From an uncultured Bacteroidales bacterium (GTDB lineage: Bacteria; Bacteroidota; Bacteroidia; Bacteroidales; Bacteroidaceae), in contig CACXUA010000019.1 of assembly GCA_902770725.1 (NCBI GenBank), positions 1-47,067 on the forward strand: a stretch of DNA of 47,067 bases, written 5' to 3'. Below, one piece after another: positions 13,560 to 19,912 of this stretch; the first letter of the stretch is position 1, and each line of letters starts with the position of its first letter. The notes under the pieces are model-generated. The model made no database searches and was not told where the DNA came from. It worked only from the letters and a program-made list of their open reading frames with translations. A program made the translations under genes and the position numbers.

Positions 13560-14969
13560 ATGGGAAATCCGAAAGCATTTCTGACTGTGCCTCGCAAGGA
13601 GGCTGGATACAGACCTATTCACGACCGCATACATGACTTTGGCGAAGTGGAACAGACGCTCAACACGCGCGACAGGCAGGAACAGGCCAGCCGTTGCATG
13701 GATTGCGGCGTGCCTTTCTGCCATTGGGCTTGCCCGCTTGGCAACAAAGACCCCGAATGGAACGATGCACTCTATCATGGCGAGTGGGAAACAGCATATA
13801 AGTTATTGAAGAAGACCAATCCCTTCCCCGAGTTCACGGGCCGCATCTGTCCGGCTCTTTGCGAGAAGGCTTGCGTGCTATATCATACCACGGGCGAGGC
13901 TGTCACCAACCGCGAGAATGAATGTGCCATTGCCGAGCGAGCCTTCCTGGAAGGATATGTGACCATTGAGCACCCCAAGCGCAACGGACTTCGTGTGGCT
14001 GTCGTTGGTAGTGGTCCTGCTGGACTTGCCGCTGCCCAAGCCCTCAACTATATGGGCTACGAGGTGACAGTCTTCGAGAAGAACGAAGCCGCTGGCGGAC
14101 TCTTGCGTTATGGCATCCCCAACTTCAAACTGAACAAGAAAATCATCGACAGGAGAATTGAGGTCATGGAGCAAGAAGGGATAGAGTTCAAGTACAACAG
14201 CCCCCTCCCCATCCCTCCCCAAAGGGAGGGAGTAGAAGCCCTGTTGGAGGCTCTTAATAAACAAGATAAAGACTCCTCCCCTTTGGGGGAGGCTGGGTGG
14301 GGGGCTATCGTAATCGCTACCGGCACACCTGTCGCAAGAGATTTGAAAGTTCCTGGCCGCGAACTGAAAGGCGTGCATCTTGCTCTCGAACTGCTCTCTC
14401 AGCAGAACCGCGTCCTTGCCGGCATGGAGTTCTCGAAGGAAGAGCGCATCACGGCAAAGGGCAAGGATGTCCTCGTAATCGGTGGTGGCGATACGGGAAG
14501 CGACTGCATCGGCACGGCTCATCGTCAAGGCTGCAAGAGTGTGACGCAGATTGAGATAATGCCAAAGCCTCCTGTTGGGCACAATCCTTCTACGCCTTGG
14601 CCAAACTGGCCTGTCATTCTCAAGACGACCAGCAGCCATGAAGAAGGTTGTACACGTCGTTGGAACATCAACACCCTCGAGTTCCTCGGAGAGAATGGAA
14701 AGGTGACAGGCGTCAAGGTGCAGGAGATAGACTGGAAGCCCAACCCAGAAGGCGGACGACCGTTGATGGTGGAAAAGAACGAGCCAGAAATCATCAAGGC
14801 CGACCTTGTCCTGCTGGCGATGGGCTTCCTTAAACCCGAACATCCCGAGTACCCTGAGAATGTCTTCGTCTGTGGCGATGCCGCTAATGGCGCCAGCCTC
14901 GTCGTCCGCGCTATTGCATCGGGCCTGCAGACAGCAGAGAAAGTCCACACCTATCTGCAAAGCAAGTAG
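13560..14969 (+). CDS. gltD: Glutamate synthase, small (beta) subunit, with an in-frame repeat insertion
   Basis: 469 residues. The N-terminal part carries the cysteines for two Fe-S clusters (CMDCGVPFCHWACPLGNKDP and RICPALCEKAC). The FAD motif VAVVGSGPAGLAAAQAL and the NADPH motif VLVIGGGDTGSDCIGTA follow. It passes electrons from NADPH to GltB. Between EFKYN and AIVIATGT there are about 35 residues where I expect about 17 from the family. The extra residues (PLPIPPQREG at one end, SSPLGEAGWG at the other) come from a C-rich/G-rich inverted repeat at 14199-14305. The reading frame stays open and all catalytic motifs remain, so the subunit is probably functional with a surface loop. Confidence 0.95.
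   Translation: MGNPKAFLTVPRKEAGYRPIHDRIHDFGEVEQTLNTRDRQEQASRCMDCGVPFCHWACPLGNKDPEWNDALYHGEWETAYKLLKKTNPFPEFTGRICPALCEKACVLYHTTGEAVTNRENECAIAERAFLEGYVTIEHPKRNGLRVAVVGSGPAGLAAAQALNYMGYEVTVFEKNEAAGGLLRYGIPNFKLNKKIIDRRIEVMEQEGIEFKYNSPLPIPPQREGVEALLEALNKQDKDSSPLGEAGWGAIVIATGTPVARDLKVPGRELKGVHLALELLSQQNRVLAGMEFSKEERITAKGKDVLVIGGGDTGSDCIGTAHRQGCKSVTQIEIMPKPPVGHNPSTPWPNWPVILKTTSSHEEGCTRRWNINTLEFLGENGKVTGVKVQEIDWKPNPEGGRPLMVEKNEPEIIKADLVLLAMGFLKPEHPEYPENVFVCGDAANGASLVVRAIASGLQTAEKVHTYLQSK
14199..14305. repeat. Palindromic C-rich/G-rich element inside gltD
   Basis: The first 26 bp (beginning AGCCCCCTCCCC) and the reverse complement of the last 26 bp (beginning AGCCCCCCACCC) match apart from a few positions, and both end CCAAAG. 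Each end also folds on itself (CCTCCCC AAA GGGAGGG; CTCCCC TTT GGGGGAGG). The layout is that of a small non-autonomous inverted-repeat element read through in frame by gltD. Confidence 0.75.
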
Positions 14970-14993
14970 AGACTTAAACTAACAACTAATGTG

Positions 14994-15028
14994 AGCGGAC
15001 AGCCTGCCGACATTCGGGGCTGTCCGCT
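14994..15028 (+). terminator. Hairpin after gltD
   Basis: The arms AGCGGACAGCC and GGCTGTCCGCT form a perfect 11-bp stem with a 13-nt loop. It is 24 bp after the gltD stop. The T-run is weak, but the position suits the end of the gltBD operon. Confidence 0.7.
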
Positions 15029-15074
15029 TGTGCTGTAAGAGGGCTTTTTCTGCGTGTATTCGTGTAATATATAT

Positions 15075-15101
15075 TCAAAAAGCCGTCCGGGGAGGGACGG
15101 C
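15075..15101 (-). terminator. Minus-strand hairpin with T-run
   Basis: GCCGTCC and GGACGGC pair around a 6-nt loop. On the minus strand the stem is followed by TTTTT. No minus-strand gene is seen to feed it; it may shield gltD from antisense transcription. Confidence 0.5.
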
Positions 15102-15246
15102 CTATAATATAAAAAGGTAGAGGTGGAAAAGAGATTTGGGAGGACGCGCTGGCGATTTAGGTGGGCGGAGATAGCAAAATTTGACATCTTCGCCCGCATT
15201 CTGCTAGTTTAACAGGGAAAGCGGAGAAAAATTGAAATAAAATGCG

Positions 15247-15254
15247 TAACTTTG
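15247..15254 (+). promoter_or_regulatory. Bacteroidetes -7 element for the restriction-modification operon
   Basis: TAACTTTG matches TAnnTTTG. Transcription would start near 15260, only about 13 nt before the preferred methyltransferase ATG at 15274, giving an almost leaderless mRNA. Confidence 0.65.
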
Positions 15255-15273
15255 CCGTCGAAAAGTGACAATC

Positions 15274-16881
15274 ATGGCAAAGAAAGATATTAAAAGCGGA
15301 CTAAAACTTGAAGCCTTCCCTGAAGAGATTACCGAGGATGGCATCAGGATTTACGGCGAAACTTCATATGAAAATCAGATGGCGGTGCTGAGCCATTATC
15401 TGCACAATAACCGCGAGGACGTGGACGACGAAAGTAAGGAGGAAATCATCCTTGCTATCCGCGAGTTCCTTTCTCGCAAAAGGTTTCGTCAGGACAAGGA
15501 TGAGGAATTGTCCGATGAGCAGATTTGGATGGCTGCCGAATCCCCTTTGCAATATAATCTGTTCGGCGAATTCTTTAAGATACCTTTTCCCGCCCCAGAG
15601 AATCCTCGATTCACGTTTATCGATCTTTTTGCAGGTATGGGTGGTTTCCGAATCGCTATGCAGCGACTTGGCGGCAAGTGTGTCTATTCATCCGAGTTCA
15701 AGGCTTCGGCACAGCAAGCCTACCTTGCGAATTACGGCGAAATGCCCTTTGGTGACATCACGAAGGAATCAACAAAAAAATACATCCCTGACCATTTTGA
15801 CATTCTTTGCGCAGGCTTCCCGTGTCAGGCTTTCTCGGCAGCGGGTGCAAGGAAGGGGTTTGCCGACGAGACTCGCGGTACCCTTTTCTTTGAAGTGGCT
15901 CGGATATTAAAGGAAAAACGTCCAAAAGGATTCTTCCTCGAAAATGTGGAGGGTTTAGTAAACCATGATGGAGGCCGCACATTGCGCATTATCCTTGATA
16001 CGCTCCGTAGCCTTGGCTACAAAGTCAATCACAGAGTGTTGGACGCTTCGGACTTCGGTGTGGCGCAAGCGAGACGGCGAATATACATTGTGGGTACATT
16101 CGACAAAAAGGTGTCACTGGATGATTTCCCCGTGAGAAAAGCAACTGTGGGCGACGTGCTGGAGCAAGGCAAACTGCTTTCGCAGAATCGCATTGTAAAA
16201 CTTTTGCTCAAAAAATTTTCTTTGGATGAGCTATATGGAAAATCAATTAAGGACAAACGTGGCGGTGGCGATAACATTCACAGCTGGGAGATTGGCATTA
16301 AAGGTGAAACCACCAAGGCGGAACGTGCCCTGCTTGACAAGATGCTCACCGAGAGACGAAAGAAGAAGTGGGCCGAGCAGTGGGGTATTGACTGGATGGA
16401 CGGTATGCCTCTCTCCCGCGAAATGATAGCCTCTTTCTACCAAGGCAAAGACCTTGACAAACTACTTGAAAGCCTTGTGAAGAAACGTTATCTTGTGTAC
16501 GAGCATCCGAAGAAACGCATCACCAAAAGAACTGACAGCGGTGTAAGCTACAGCGTTAGAGTAGAGGACGAAAGCAAACCACAAGGTTATAATATTGTAG
16601 CAGGCAAGTTGAGTTTTGACATAAGCAAAATTCTTGATCCAAACGATGTGGCCCCTACGCTTGTAGCAATGGATATGAACAAACTATATGTGGGTGATAA
16701 CGGAGGACTGCGACGGCTTACTTTGCGTGAGGGTTTGAGACTATTCGGCTATCCTGAAGAGTATGTTCTCGGCATGTCCGAAAGAGAAGGCTACGACCTC
16801 TTGGGTAACACTGTGGTTGTGCCTGTAATAAAGGCTGTTGCCGAGCGACTTATCAACGAGATTAGTAAACAGAAGAATTAA
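15274..16881 (+). CDS. DNA (cytosine-5)-methyltransferase of a type II R-M system
   Basis: 535 residues from the ATG at 15274 (a GTG at 15265 is possible but sits almost on the predicted transcription start). The C5-MTase motifs occur in order: I, FIDLFAGMGGFRIAM; IV, CAGFPCQAFSAAG, with the catalytic Cys of the PCQ motif; VI, FFLENVEGL; VIII, ARRRIYIVGTF; IX, RRLTLREGLRLFGYP; X, LLGNTVVVPVI. About 110 residues precede motif I, and the target-recognition region lies between motifs VIII and IX, so it is a non-permuted enzyme. It methylates cytosine in the host copies of the site cut by the next gene. The operon continues with the nuclease, a 2TM protein and three tiny ORFs. Confidence 0.95.
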   Translation: MAKKDIKSGLKLEAFPEEITEDGIRIYGETSYENQMAVLSHYLHNNREDVDDESKEEIILAIREFLSRKRFRQDKDEELSDEQIWMAAESPLQYNLFGEFFKIPFPAPENPRFTFIDLFAGMGGFRIAMQRLGGKCVYSSEFKASAQQAYLANYGEMPFGDITKESTKKYIPDHFDILCAGFPCQAFSAAGARKGFADETRGTLFFEVARILKEKRPKGFFLENVEGLVNHDGGRTLRIILDTLRSLGYKVNHRVLDASDFGVAQARRRIYIVGTFDKKVSLDDFPVRKATVGDVLEQGKLLSQNRIVKLLLKKFSLDELYGKSIKDKRGGGDNIHSWEIGIKGETTKAERALLDKMLTERRKKKWAEQWGIDWMDGMPLSREMIASFYQGKDLDKLLESLVKKRYLVYEHPKKRITKRTDSGVSYSVRVEDESKPQGYNIVAGKLSFDISKILDPNDVAPTLVAMDMNKLYVGDNGGLRRLTLREGLRLFGYPEEYVLGMSEREGYDLLGNTVVVPVIKAVAERLINEISKQKN

Positions 16882-16892
16882 CAACGAATAAA

Positions 16893-17630
16893 ATGAAACT
16901 TACAGCAGAACAAGTATTAGACAAACTGGTGAATGATGATAAAATCCTCACCCGTGAAGGCCAAATCAAGTTTTACCTCGGCGATGTTGACATAATAGTC
17001 AAACAGCGCGATGTTGTTGGTAACATCATGCAAGAATGGCTGGAGGGTTGGCTAAGACATAACAACGTTGAATTTGCATCCAATCCGAATACTCAGATGC
17101 CGCCCGATGTTTTCCTTGACCCCGATGACAAGACTAAGAACCTTTTGGAAGTGAAAGCATTCAATTTCCGTAGTTCACCAGGCTTTGATATTGCCGATTT
17201 CAGAATGTACGAACAGGAGATTGTTACCAAGCCATACATGCTCGATGTTACCTATCTGGTATTTGGCTATGACATGAGCAAGGATGGAGTCGTTACCATC
17301 AAGCGAATATGGAAACAGAAGGTTTGGGAAATCACACGTCCGATGATTGACACTAAGAAAATAGAATGGCCTATAAGCCTGCAACAGAAAAGCGGACGAG
17401 TTCATAAAATCCGCCCAGCCAAATGGTATCGTCAATCAAAGAAGTTTAATACTTTCCAGAATGTAGAAGATTTCCTGTCAGCTGTAGAACAGACGGTTTA
17501 TCAAAATATAGAAACAAGAGCAGACGGGCCAGGATGGAAACAAAAGATGGAAGCAAACTACAAGAACTTCTTTGGCAAGAGAATCTCCATCCCTCGTTGG
17601 GATGATATTAGGTCGAAGTACATTATCTGA
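16893..17630 (+). CDS. Type II restriction endonuclease, NgoBV/NlaIV-like
   Basis: 245 residues, 11 bp after the methyltransferase stop. The protein begins MKLTAEQVLDKLVNDDKIL, and the segment VVGNIMQEWLEGWL leads into a PD-(D/E)xK-type core: PDVFLDPDD, then LLEVKAF with the ExK pair at about residue 90. The overall look matches the NgoBV/NlaIV family that cuts GGNNCC, recalled from memory rather than from a search, so the recognition site is a hypothesis. Its role would be cleavage of unmethylated incoming DNA. It lacks any transmembrane or additional domain. A controller gene is not visible, so timing of expression may depend on gene order, with the methyltransferase first. Confidence 0.85.
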   Translation: MKLTAEQVLDKLVNDDKILTREGQIKFYLGDVDIIVKQRDVVGNIMQEWLEGWLRHNNVEFASNPNTQMPPDVFLDPDDKTKNLLEVKAFNFRSSPGFDIADFRMYEQEIVTKPYMLDVTYLVFGYDMSKDGVVTIKRIWKQKVWEITRPMIDTKKIEWPISLQQKSGRVHKIRPAKWYRQSKKFNTFQNVEDFLSAVEQTVYQNIETRADGPGWKQKMEANYKNFFGKRISIPRWDDIRSKYII

Positions 17631-17643
17631 TAAATAGATTTTA

Positions 17644-18168
17644 ATGGAAGTCCGCAACAAAATTTGGGAGGAGTTCAAACAGGCTAAGGCGAATGTAGTT
17701 TGCATCCGCCGATACACTAGTTTGCAACGGCAATTGAATTGCATTTATCAGGTTTTCATCGCCGTATGTGCTGCCGTCGGCACATTCTCATTCGGATTTA
17801 GCGACAAAATACCATTCATTGCATTACTCTCAATCGCTGTTGTCTCGTTGATAAAGGCCATCTTTCCTCAAATCTTGCAGCCCGAACAGGAATTGTGCAG
17901 TCTTGACGCACTGATGGACTACTACAATTCGTTCATGAACAAGCTGGAAGCATTCTTCTACCAACTTGACAAGGAGCAAAAGACCGATGACGAAGTAATG
18001 GCTGAACTTTTCACGCTAAAGGAGGAAGAATGCAAGAAGCAATCGCAAATGAACAAGCTAATCCGATGGATACCAAAACGAATGCAGAAAAAAGTGGACG
18101 CAGAAGTGCAGACATATATAGACGAAGTTTATTTCAACATATACAAACAAGATGACCAACAACAATAG
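17644..18168 (+). CDS. Two-transmembrane protein, SLATT-like, in the R-M operon
   Basis: 174 residues, 13 bp after the nuclease stop. A basic N-terminal helix (to about residue 27) is followed by two hydrophobic helices: about residues 32-52 (IYQVFIAVCAAVGTFSF) and 56-78 (IPFIALLSIAVVSLIKAIF). A long charged helical tail with Lys/Glu-rich segments (LDKEQKTDDE, KRMQKKVDAEV) follows. This layout is that of SLATT-type 2TM effectors, which are thought to act as membrane-damaging outputs in anti-phage systems. I see no nucleotide-binding or enzymatic motif, and the SLATT link is by architecture only. Its 3' end overlaps the start of the first tiny proline-tailed ORF by 17 bp, so the two are translationally linked. 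Confidence 0.7.
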   Translation: MEVRNKIWEEFKQAKANVVCIRRYTSLQRQLNCIYQVFIAVCAAVGTFSFGFSDKIPFIALLSIAVVSLIKAIFPQILQPEQELCSLDALMDYYNSFMNKLEAFFYQLDKEQKTDDEVMAELFTLKEEECKKQSQMNKLIRWIPKRMQKKVDAEVQTYIDEVYFNIYKQDDQQQ

Positions 18169-18280
18169 AAGTTATTCGCCAGAGCATACATATATCGGTG
18201 CAGGCGACGATGTGAAGAAGATTCAAGGCTCAATGCCATCAGCAGTAAACACCCCTCCACCTCCAAAACCCTCTAAGTGA
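18152..18280 (+). CDS. Tiny proline-tailed protein 1 (42 aa)
   Basis: The ATG lies inside the end of the 2TM gene, in another frame. The 42-residue product begins MTNNNRSYSPEHTYIGAGDD and ends VNTPPPPKPSK. No family is recognised. The C-terminal proline tract followed by a basic last residue recurs in the next two ORFs, which argues that all three are translated and under selection. The stop TGA is one base before the next ATG. No Shine-Dalgarno is visible, as is usual for this phylum. A function cannot be assigned; the tail could be a peptide ligand for a partner in the operon. Confidence 0.6.
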   Translation: MTNNNRSYSPEHTYIGAGDDVKKIQGSMPSAVNTPPPPKPSK

Positions 18281-18281
18281 T

Positions 18282-18359
18282 ATGCCAAATAACAATACCC
18301 AACAGCGGGAATCGCCTACAAGAGTGCCGACACCCCCACCACCAAAACCAAATAAGTGA
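18282..18359 (+). CDS. Tiny proline-tailed protein 2 (25 aa)
   Basis: 25 residues: start MPNNNTQQRES, then PTRVPTPPPPKPNK at the C-terminus. It begins one base after the stop of ORF 1 and ends three bases before ORF 3. Compared with ORF 3 it shares the MPN start, the S-P-x-R-V segment and the T-P-P-P-P tail. The match suggests tandem duplication followed by divergence. Too short for normal gene callers. No known function. Confidence 0.6.
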   Translation: MPNNNTQQRESPTRVPTPPPPKPNK

Positions 18360-18362
18360 ATT

Positions 18363-18443
18363 ATGCCAAATACTGAACCAAAACCGCAGCAGCAAAGTCC
18401 TTCGAGGGTGACGACTCCGCCACCTCCTCCACCAAGGAAATGA
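18363..18443 (+). CDS. Tiny proline-tailed protein 3 (26 aa)
   Basis: 26 residues: start MPNTEPKPQQQ, then SPSRVTTPPPPPPRK at the C-terminus. It is the last ORF before a strong intrinsic terminator at 18477-18514, so it closes the restriction-modification operon. The spacing TGA-ATT-ATG from ORF 2 indicates re-initiation or coupling. Function unknown. Confidence 0.6.
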   Translation: MPNTEPKPQQQSPSRVTTPPPPPPRK

Positions 18444-18476
18444 TGATGAAACTATTTTTTTCTGCAAATATTCCAT

Positions 18477-18514
18477 AAAATCCCGTGAGCCGTGAATATC
18501 TTACGGGATTTTTT
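18477..18514 (+). terminator. Intrinsic terminator of the R-M operon
   Basis: AAAATCCCGT and ACGGGATTTT form a 10-bp stem with a 16-nt loop, and the T-run continues to 18514. It separates the tiny ORFs from the hairpin and repeat unit that follows. Confidence 0.9.
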
Positions 18515-18516
18515 CA

Positions 18517-18524
18517 TATCTTTG
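18517..18524 (+). promoter_or_regulatory. Bacteroidetes -7 element ahead of the hairpin RNA
   Basis: TATCTTTG matches TAnnTTTG three bases after the terminator T-run. A transcript would start near 18530, 40 nt before the long hairpin. Confidence 0.6.
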
Positions 18525-18569
18525 CACATAGAATTCAGACTTTTTGGAAAAAGAGCCACAGTTTTTCGC

Positions 18570-18699
18570 TTCACCTACAAATAGACCAACAAAATAATCG
18601 AAGCGCGACAAACGAAGGCTGCCAGCTCATTCCCTATAGGGGCGTGGGCATTGGTGGTATTCGGCAGTGTCGCGCAAGGGTTGGTCCCCTGTAGGTGAA
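18570..18699 (+). ncRNA. Candidate structured RNA: 130-nt nested hairpin
   Basis: Four pairings nest inside one another. TTCACCTACA (18570) pairs with TGTAGGTGAA (18690); GACCAAC (18584) with GTTGGTC (18680); GCGCGACA (18603) with TGTCGCGC (18668); CTGCC (18619) with GGCAG (18663). The apical loop contains CCCTATAGGGG, which can fold on itself. A promoter lies just upstream. I see no match to SRP RNA, tmRNA or RNase P motifs. No ORF with family character overlaps it. It could be a regulatory RNA, a long leader for the repeat region, or an inverted-repeat element. Confidence 0.55.
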
Positions 18700-18759
18700 T
18701 TGTTGTTTATTCAAAGGTGCTCTGCGCCTCTTTCCTTTAAGATGGATTCAAAGACAAGC

Positions 18760-19071
18760 TTGCCGACGCACCGGCACAGGCAGACGGAGGCTCGCACAAA
18801 GGTGAAAGAAGGCTGGCAAAGGCAAAGGAGAACTCCGACAAGGTTGCCGATGCGTCGGCAAGGGCAAACGAAGGTTCCGGCAAACGTGCCGATGATTCCG
18901 AAAGGATGAATGAACTCAGGTTTGAGTTTGCCGACAGGTCGGCAAGGAGGAACAAGATGAGGTTTGAGGTTGCCGACGGGTCGGCAAAGGGGAATGAGGT
19001 CAGGTTTAGGCTTGCCGACATGTCGGCAAGGAAGAATGAGAACTCTTTTATATTTGCCGAAAACTCGGTAA
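18760..19071. repeat. Array of 42-bp repeats centred on an 18-bp palindrome
   Basis: The palindrome TTGCCGACnnGTCGGCAA starts at 18928, 18970 and 19012; a close form starts at 18844, degenerate forms at 18760 and 19054, and in-phase remnants at 18802 and 18886. All are multiples of 42 bp apart, so there are eight units. The 24-bp spacers are also alike (variants of GAGGTTTGAGG). 42 bp is 14 codons, and the array is open on both strands. Conserved spacers and a perfect period argue against CRISPR. Confidence 0.9.
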
Positions 19072-19082
19072 AGCGACTATGA
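18906..19082 (+). CDS. Possible 58-aa protein of 14-residue repeats
   Basis: The + frame that reads through the 42-bp array is open from 18741 to 19082, but its first ATG is at 18906, giving 58 residues. The units read FADRSARRN, VADGSAKGN and LADMSARKN, each followed by charged residues and RF: an A-D-x-S-A core with a 14-residue period, which would suit an amphipathic helical or coiled structure. No family is recognised. The stop precedes the DUF6261-like gene by 32 bp. The opposite strand is also open (94 codons from 19021). Translation on either strand is unproven, and the array may be a DNA or RNA element instead. Confidence 0.3.
   Translation: MNELRFEFADRSARRNKMRFEVADGSAKGNEVRFRLADMSARKNENSFIFAENSVKRL
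19049..19056 (+). promoter_or_regulatory. -7 element inside the last repeat unit
   Basis: TATATTTG matches TAnnTTTG. Transcription would start near 19063, about 52 nt before the DUF6261-like ATG. The last repeat palindrome overlaps this promoter, so a protein that binds the palindrome could control the gene. Confidence 0.5.
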
Positions 19083-19114
19083 AGATAAGTATTAACCCTT
19101 AAAAATCAACGATT

Positions 19115-19912
19115 ATGGCAGAACTTAACAAGAGAAACATCCACAATGTTGCGAATGCGTTCCACTTCAGCACGGTGGAGAAAATCCTCGGGCTGGTGAT
19201 GGCATCTGACCTGCGAAACACGTTCCGTCCGTTGGGTGCACTGGCCGAGGAGCTGATGCGCCGCTTCCAACGTGAGGACACAGCCTACAAGCTCTCGCTG
19301 AAGAACTTCACGAGCGACGACATCGGGGTGCTGGACTCGAAGCGCGATAAGTACGCGCAGTTCCTCAAGTCGGTGCTGACGGCCTACACCTATTTGCCAG
19401 AGGAGGGCATGGTGCGGCAGGCGAGCGTCCTCCTGCAGGTGTTCAAGGACTACAAGTGGCGCCCCTCGGAAGCTTATTTGGCTGAGACGGCGAAGCTGGA
19501 CAACATGCTGCAGGAGTGGGACAAGGAGCAGCCGGCGGCATGGCTGCAGGCGATGGGGCTGACGTACTTCGTGGATGCTCTGCGCACGACGAATGCTGAT
19601 GTGAAGTCGCTCATCCAGGACCGCCAAGCCGAGCAGTCTGTGGTAGTTCGCGGCGAATTGCGAGCCGCCCGTGCCGAGGTGGACGAGAAGCTTCAGGAGA
19701 TACTCCGCTACATCGATGCGCTGAACATCACTTCGCCCTCCGACGACCTGACCGACCTCATCCTGAAAATCAACGAGGCATTCCGCTACATGGACGCGCA
19801 GATTGCGGCTGGGAAGAAGAAAGGGGAGTCCTCGAATGAGAACAATGGGAGCAATGGCGGTGGCGGCACGACCGTCATCAGCAACGAGGACACGATTCAT
19901 GGCTTGGAATAA
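19115..19912 (+). CDS. Bacteroidetes protein of unknown function, DUF6261-like
   Basis: 265 residues beginning MAELNKRNIHNVANAFHFST. It is predicted largely helical and soluble, without signal peptide or TM helix. The N-terminal segment N-I-H-N-V-A-N-A-F-H-F-S resembles the start of DUF6261 proteins, a Bacteroidetes family often present in several copies; this is from memory. The centre has LIQDRQAEQSVVVRGELR, and the last 35 residues are low-complexity (GKKKGESSNENNGSNGGGG), probably a flexible tail. Function unknown. It lies after the 42-bp repeat array with its own promoter in the last repeat, and before glnA, from which it is separated by a hairpin and about 300 bp. Confidence 0.7.
   Translation: MAELNKRNIHNVANAFHFSTVEKILGLVMASDLRNTFRPLGALAEELMRRFQREDTAYKLSLKNFTSDDIGVLDSKRDKYAQFLKSVLTAYTYLPEEGMVRQASVLLQVFKDYKWRPSEAYLAETAKLDNMLQEWDKEQPAAWLQAMGLTYFVDALRTTNADVKSLIQDRQAEQSVVVRGELRAARAEVDEKLQEILRYIDALNITSPSDDLTDLILKINEAFRYMDAQIAAGKKKGESSNENNGSNGGGGTTVISNEDTIHGLE

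Follow-up and report, generated by a model that had tools for sequence, protein, structure and literature searches.

A divergent SLATT-type membrane gene genetically linked to tandem proline-rich micro-proteins: a possible peptide-gated defence effector

We analyzed a window of 47,067 nucleotides (the whole stretch of DNA considered here) from a contig of an uncultured Bacteroidales bacterium, in which a gene for a protein with two transmembrane helices (the 2TM gene) lies behind a restriction-modification (R-M) pair and is followed by three very short open reading frames (ORFs) and a terminator:

15265–16881, + strand: C5 cytosine DNA methyltransferase (PF00145, E 1.6e-81; TIGR00675, E 4.6e-97), a neighbour outside the module
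16893–17630, + strand: NgoBV-type restriction endonuclease (PF09564, E 1.9e-103), a neighbour outside the module
17644–18168, + strand: 2TM effector of divergent SLATT type, 174 aa (weak NCBIfam SLATT_4 match and AlphaFold model)
18152–18280, + strand: ORF1, predicted micro-protein of 42 aa, overlapping the last 17 nt of the 2TM gene in another frame; kept in loci L007, L008, L009 and L010
18282–18359, + strand: ORF2, predicted micro-protein of 25 aa; kept in L007, L008 and L009 with an in-frame indel
18363–18443, + strand: ORF3, predicted micro-protein of 26 aa; kept in L007, L008 and L009, with a remnant of its tail in genome G152
18477–18512, + strand: intrinsic terminator, a hairpin with a 13-bp stem (-15.8 kcal/mol, z -4.5) followed by a run of T

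The first-pass annotation of this DNA had described three adjacent ORFs of 42, 25 and 26 codons with gaps of 1–3 nt and similar proline tails, the first overlapping the end of the 2TM gene, with R-M genes upstream and a strong terminator behind the set, and each of these points was borne out. ORF1 begins within the 2TM gene and covers its final 17 nt, 1 nt separates ORF1 from ORF2 and 3 nt separate ORF2 from ORF3, and the methylase adjoins its cognate endonuclease upstream of the micro-ORFs, as in type II R-M systems of the NgoBV type. The predicted proteins end in TPPPPKPSK (ORF1), TPPPPKPNK (ORF2) and TPPPPPPRK (ORF3), and ORF2 and ORF3 additionally have an MPN start and an SP-x-RV stretch in common. 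The annotation had also judged a chance origin of three such similar tails very unlikely, and we agree: among the 536 window ORFs of 20–60 aa, only ORF1–3 carry PPPP within their last 12 residues, and 60 first-order Markov windows produced 4 PPPP tails and no TPPPP tail in 48,653 random ORFs. No family or domain was found for ORF1–3 in Pfam, NCBIfam or PADLOC, and the predicted model of ORF1 (pLDDT 62, pTM 0.16) points to a largely disordered protein.

Codon alignments of the window with L007, L008 and L009 (plus L010 for ORF1), in which gaps were placed by hand, show that ORF1–3 are real coding sequence. Pooled pairwise pN/pS is 0.256 for ORF1 (0.214 when the overlap is left out), 0.260 for ORF2 and 0.110 for ORF3, and differences at codon positions 1/2/3 number 65/59/177, 21/21/69 and 11/10/67, respectively, in pairs that are not independent of one another. 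In the two independent pairs, the third position accounts for 34 of 50 differences between the window and L007 (p 6e-7) and for 43 of 75 between L008 and L009 (p 2e-5), and all changes in ORF length are whole codons. This third-position excess and the in-frame conservation support the earlier suggestion of translated micro-proteins that diverged after duplication. As to loss or frameshifting of the ORFs in homologous operons, the outcome is mixed: the ORFs that we found are in frame, but L010 (SLATT 75% identical) has ORF1 only and L006 (SLATT 26% identical) has none downstream.

We take the 2TM protein as a divergent SLATT-type protein. Its match to NCBIfam SLATT_4 (NF033632) has an E value of 3.7e-7 and 30.1 bits, below the curated cut-off of 55 bits; when eight members of the subfamily were compared with this profile, six matched at E values up to 0.01 and none scored above the cut-off. 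The AlphaFold model (six sequences; pLDDT 81.4) has helices at residues 2–49, 55–73, 81–109, 115–139 and 145–172, that is, a long first helix, a second transmembrane helix and three more, and thereby contains the SLATT feature of two transmembrane helices followed by a helical domain, which its charge would place in the cytoplasm. In a Foldseek comparison with BFVD, 9 of the 50 matches listed were named SLATT or SMODS and SLOG-associating 2TM effector; several of these had a probability of 0.99–1.00 and a TM score of about 0.5–0.6, with a best E value of 0.015 and none at 0.001 or below. Foldseek found no PDB relative at E 0.001, and the PADLOC 2TM effector model matched weakly (E 0.002). No SMODS, SLOG, TIR or RT gene stands among the operon genes (methylase, NgoBV endonuclease and SLATT). 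The best viral fold matches listed were giant-virus proteins carrying the two names above.

Including the window, we collected 16 distinct loci of this SLATT subfamily (window, L003, L004, L005, L006, L007, L008, L009, L010, L012, L016, L157, L158, L185, L159 and L160). They come from Bacteroidales relatives, another family of the class, two IMG/VR contigs (L158 and L185), and plasmids of a gammaproteobacterium (L159, Methylotuvimicrobium alcaliphilum) and an alphaproteobacterium (L160, Methylobacterium oryzae). The subfamily is rare: it is present in 6 of the 301 genomes searched in the window's family, in 2 of 395 at the level of the phylum, in 2 of 199 from the family to which genome G403 belongs, and in 1 of 198 in a class-level search, this one being the window's own. 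One search gave seven matches other than its own; L016 was kept, L013 was dropped as a remnant (a truncated SLATT gene without peptide), and L014, L015, L017, L018 and L019 were dropped as chance, being partial matches that mostly lie within other frames. tblastn with four SLATT queries found no relative in phages. In plasmids, queries P0001 and P0005 found no relative, and P0003 together with the Methylotuvimicrobium and Methylobacterium proteins found two plasmids; P0001, P0003 and both plasmid proteins had no matches when scanned against viral sequence.

We found that a small proline-rich ORF of 34–63 aa lies at the SLATT stop codon in 15 of the 16 loci, starting at -17 to +11 nt from the stop. 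It stands in two different frames relative to the SLATT gene among these loci, and this variation argues that the micro-ORFs encode separate proteins and rules out a frameshift fusion of SLATT and ORF1. In the control set of other SLATT_4 loci, none of 11 has a proline-rich ORF at the stop (Fisher p 9e-7, a guide only, given that the loci are related and had been inspected before the motif was defined); the nearest candidate, at L171, is a 24-aa ORF with 17% proline and without PPP, 190 nt downstream. The retrieved DNA contains 851 genes encoding 100 aa or more; a strict-motif ORF lies behind 11 of the 15 intact subfamily members among them and behind 0 of 836 others, the motif having been defined after the loci had been inspected. 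Relaxing the rule to PPP or a proline content of 18% or more also flags three non-SLATT genes among 850 (L038, L041 and L165). ORF1-type sequences share P-x4-T-P-P-P-P, with one proline and three positions of the proline run invariant in all 11 aligned sequences; the consensus over the loci is hydrophobic-P-x4-T-P-P-P-P, and in the most distant partners (L005 and L159) PP or MP replaces PPPP. Together, these observations indicate that the micro-ORFs belong with the 2TM gene rather than with the R-M genes, and we consider a functional partnership between the micro-proteins and the SLATT protein very probable.

The sole miss is L006, in which an intact SLATT gene has no proline-rich ORF downstream, so that 14 of 15 intact SLATT genes have a partner. 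The reverse situation is seen at L016, where the SLATT gene has an in-frame TAA and the peptide sequence is retained, and in G152, which retains the ORF3 tail and has no SLATT gene of the subfamily; L013 has a truncated SLATT gene and no proline-rich ORF. In L006 (minus strand) and L178, the start of the intact SLATT gene is overlapped by an ORF of roughly 90 aa that contains PPIDPPPVRGG and that in L006 may or may not be a partner; NVEALA-like peptides follow. The bare DNA pattern P-x-x-V-x-T-P-P-P-P occurs at 16 places in 11 of the 301 genomes of the family (8 SLATT-linked in 3 genomes, 1 the G152 remnant, 7 other). A reversed-pattern control in the same genomes gave about 29 places, more than the real pattern, and the bare pattern is thus uninformative on its own. 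The same pattern is present in at least 120 stretches of viral contigs, and among the short ORFs of L036–L115, the viral pattern matches listed, no SLATT-linked case was recognised.

The number of micro-proteins differs between loci. All three ORFs are present in L007, L008 and L009 in the same order and each with its own identity, which places the triplication before these loci diverged. There are two ORFs in L003 and in L185, L004 has two with two motif copies in the second, L158 has a single ORF with two motif copies, and L010 has ORF1 alone. On the M. oryzae plasmid, the window's layout recurs, with a SLATT gene followed by three chained small ORFs:

L160, 3869–4495: SLATT gene
L160, 4492–4683: small ORF a, 63 aa, with SIFPxFxV
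L160, 4680–4916: small ORF b, 78 aa, with SIFPxFxV; TTG start, less sure
L160, 4913–5089: small ORF c, 58 aa, with SIFPxFxV

Each of the three shares 4 nt with the gene before it, and the six frames of the 8.5-kb locus contain FPxFxV three times, every time within one of these ORFs. The plasmid table holds no coding sequence for this stretch; the table is incomplete, with one locus tag absent in that gap.

The first-pass annotation had proposed that the tails might be recognised either by the 2TM protein or by the R-M enzymes. Our comparison favours the former, as DNA similarity between the window and L008, and between the window and L007, is confined to 17642/17643–18435 (from the SLATT start codon into ORF3), the window and L008 carry different R-M genes upstream, and several loci lack R-M genes altogether. 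Upstream DNA is visible for 15 loci (L007 being cut), and in 6 of these restriction genes of four kinds lie directly upstream: an NgoBV R-M pair in the window, L010 and L009, another type II pair in L008, type I HsdS/HsdR in L003, and, in L185, an AAA protein matching type II restriction models together with a partner gene. No restriction gene was recognised beside SLATT in the ORF lists of L004, L005, L012, L016, L157 and L159. L160 has a HEPN AbiU2 gene directly upstream of SLATT, and the L158 contig carries a phage integrase and a CI-type repressor. In L003, a further ORF follows the module on the same strand, so the module need not end its operon. We conclude from these comparisons that the micro-ORFs travel with the SLATT gene independently of the R-M genes. 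On an IMG/VR contig (L182, 4001–8383), the neighbours of SLATT and its peptide are a CI-type repressor, an HSDR_N protein and a phage integrase.

Genome G152 belongs to the same genus and lacks this SLATT gene; it matches the window on both flanks of the region (window 15171–15268 and 18509–18735). Between these flanks it carries a DUF3990/DUF3791 pair (L173, 8574–9280; the DUF3791 match falls short of its cut-off) and the end of ORF3, which has no ATG of its own there. Shared flanks with different content suggest that the site exchanges cassettes and that the ORF3 tail in G152 is a remnant.

The founding paper on SLATT proteins is reportedly that of Burroughs et al. in 2015. SLATT proteins are treated as predicted pores in defence in the parts of four papers that deal with them, and those parts mention no small proline-rich SLATT partner (PMC12483538, PMC7159879, PMC9503650, PMC9122126). 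A further paper puts them forward as pore effectors and describes the SLATT gene of DRT10 as required for defence (PMC12632851). Among the papers listed in one open-licence library, we found none that describes a pairing of SLATT with proline-rich micro-proteins, which agrees with the first-pass annotation, to which no described system with this layout was known. The window protein resembles SLATT_4 (NF033632) in its two transmembrane helices near the N-terminus, its putatively cytoplasmic helical part, its weak profile match and a model similar to SLATT-named viral proteins; it differs in scoring below the cut-off, in having a proline-rich micro-protein where the 11 other SLATT_4 loci have none, and in the lack of any nucleotide-signal gene seen beside it. 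DRT10 (UG17 reverse transcriptase, ncRNA and SLATT) likewise has SLATT as a proposed toxic membrane effector under the control of a partner, but that partner, in the part of the paper describing it, is cDNA made by the reverse transcriptase (PMC12632851), whereas the only linked partner in the window is the micro-protein set. The genes adjacent to the window's SLATT are not reverse transcriptases, and no Rfam family lies in 14900–19200 at gathering score, so that the DRT10 arrangement of a UG17 reverse transcriptase and ncRNA is absent. The module is also like toxin-antitoxin pairs, with two adjacent coupled genes (overlapping or with a short gap in 15 of 16 loci, from which co-expression is predicted), a candidate membrane-active toxin and a small disordered partner. 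Unlike type II antitoxins, ORF1–3 (25–42 aa) have no DNA-binding domain in Pfam or NCBIfam; there are up to three diverged copies, and neutralisation is putative. CBASS and Panoptes use 2TM membrane effectors in phage defence; in contrast to these, the window operon has no cyclic-nucleotide synthase, and the PADLOC 2TM model matches weakly. The kind of effector is known, and the micro-protein partner appears, as far as we are aware, to be new.

The recurrence of the pairing in distant bacteria, phage sequence and plasmids suggests a membrane defence effector with tiny disordered partners. We propose that the unit would consist of a SLATT-type 2TM membrane effector and one to three co-translated, disordered, basic micro-proteins with a short linear motif. 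Through this motif, several copies of the micro-proteins would bind the SLATT oligomer at its helical cytoplasmic portion and keep the pore closed, in an antitoxin-like or gating role; infection would upset the balance, whereupon the pore would damage the membrane and phage growth would stop. Beside R-M genes the unit may add a second layer of defence to the operon that they share, and where it is stand-alone or phage-borne it may act alone. We regard a SLATT membrane effector held or gated by co-translated disordered micro-proteins as the best explanation, with a probability of roughly 0.45. Coding, linkage, coupling and independence from R-M type are shown by comparing the loci, and direct binding of the motif to the SLATT oligomer, a holding or gating role and the direction of control are what we infer beyond that; that the default role of the micro-proteins is inhibitory seems to us to have not quite an even chance. 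Peptide remnants without a working SLATT gene (L016 and G152), set against a partner at 14 of 15 intact SLATT genes, fit a protective peptide, although these are two loci only and the truncated SLATT of L013, which lacks a peptide, is a counter-case. A positive role of the peptides would explain coding, linkage, coupling, the unit itself and the replicated layout equally well. Taken as a whole, the picture of a peptide-gated membrane defence effector, in which tandem micro-proteins with a shared motif (unannotated where checked) control a SLATT pore in two phyla and in phage sequence, plugged behind unrelated restriction systems as a second line of defence, is offered tentatively and is open to real doubt.

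A positive role could take the form of sensing, with the micro-proteins meeting a phage or cell factor (for example, with the proline-rich motif as bait) and switching the SLATT pore on. This rests on the same genetics as the best explanation, and the ORF lists of the stand-alone loci show no other recognisable sensor adjoining SLATT; several diverged copies per locus would also suit several triggers. The peptide remnants without intact SLATT at L016 and in G152 suit an inhibitor better, small as their number is, and we hold sensing or activation to be an unlikely, but serious, candidate. Alternatively, the micro-proteins might be structural subunits or assembly helpers of the pore with no switching at all: the coupling of start and stop implies matched synthesis, and purifying selection is strong, on ORF3 above all. 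A copy number of one to three, and two motifs in one ORF at L158, would be odd for a fixed subunit, and this option strikes us as rather improbable.

The remaining alternatives fare worse. Proline runs stall ribosomes without EF-P, and PPPP near the stop in the window ORFs might serve as a translation sensor that stalls ribosomes when a phage disturbs EF-P or translation and so alters operon expression; yet the genes to be regulated would precede the ORFs, L005 and L159 have PP or MP instead of PPPP, the M. oryzae set keeps SIFPxFxV, and residues beyond the proline run are conserved too, all of which makes such a role very unlikely. An R-M accessory whose tails are recognised by the methylase or endonuclease would account for the position directly behind restriction genes in 6 of 15 loci, but the same module occurs with four unrelated R-M kinds and with none adjacent in the remaining loci, leaving this with only a slight probability. 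Finally, the ORFs might be non-functional and alike by chance or through a recent tandem repeat. They are short and without a known family in Pfam, NCBIfam or PADLOC, and the bare motif pattern is no commoner than its reversed control in the 301 genomes; against this stand the selection pattern, the conservation of the ORFs across loci and the linkage controls. With pN/pS, the random-sequence control and the strict-motif linkage count combined, chance or low-complexity ORFs are ruled out, and non-functionality in general retains a negligible probability.

A subfamily genetically tied to peptides would provide a minimal system of two to four small genes for studying how SLATT proteins, as putative defence pores, are held and released. 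At 25–63 aa, the micro-proteins represent a class of defence genes likely to be overlooked by standard gene calling, and the unit is compact and recombines with various types of restriction system.

Some further features were seen at the locus. Behind the terminator lies a TATCTTTGCA element, which we take to resemble the Bacteroides -7 box, followed by about 200 nt of non-coding sequence (window 18509–18735; L173 9436–9660) that is 72% identical in G152 and is possibly an unannotated ncRNA. No Rfam family reached its gathering score in 14900–19200, and a sub-threshold match to a trypanosomatid snoRNA (E 0.4) was taken as chance. Further downstream, window positions 18737–19082 hold short tandem repeats with units like GCCGAC-N-GTCGGC, and the corresponding place in G152 (L027, 1894–2268) holds different repeats, of the MDNQNE type, before a DUF6261-like gene.
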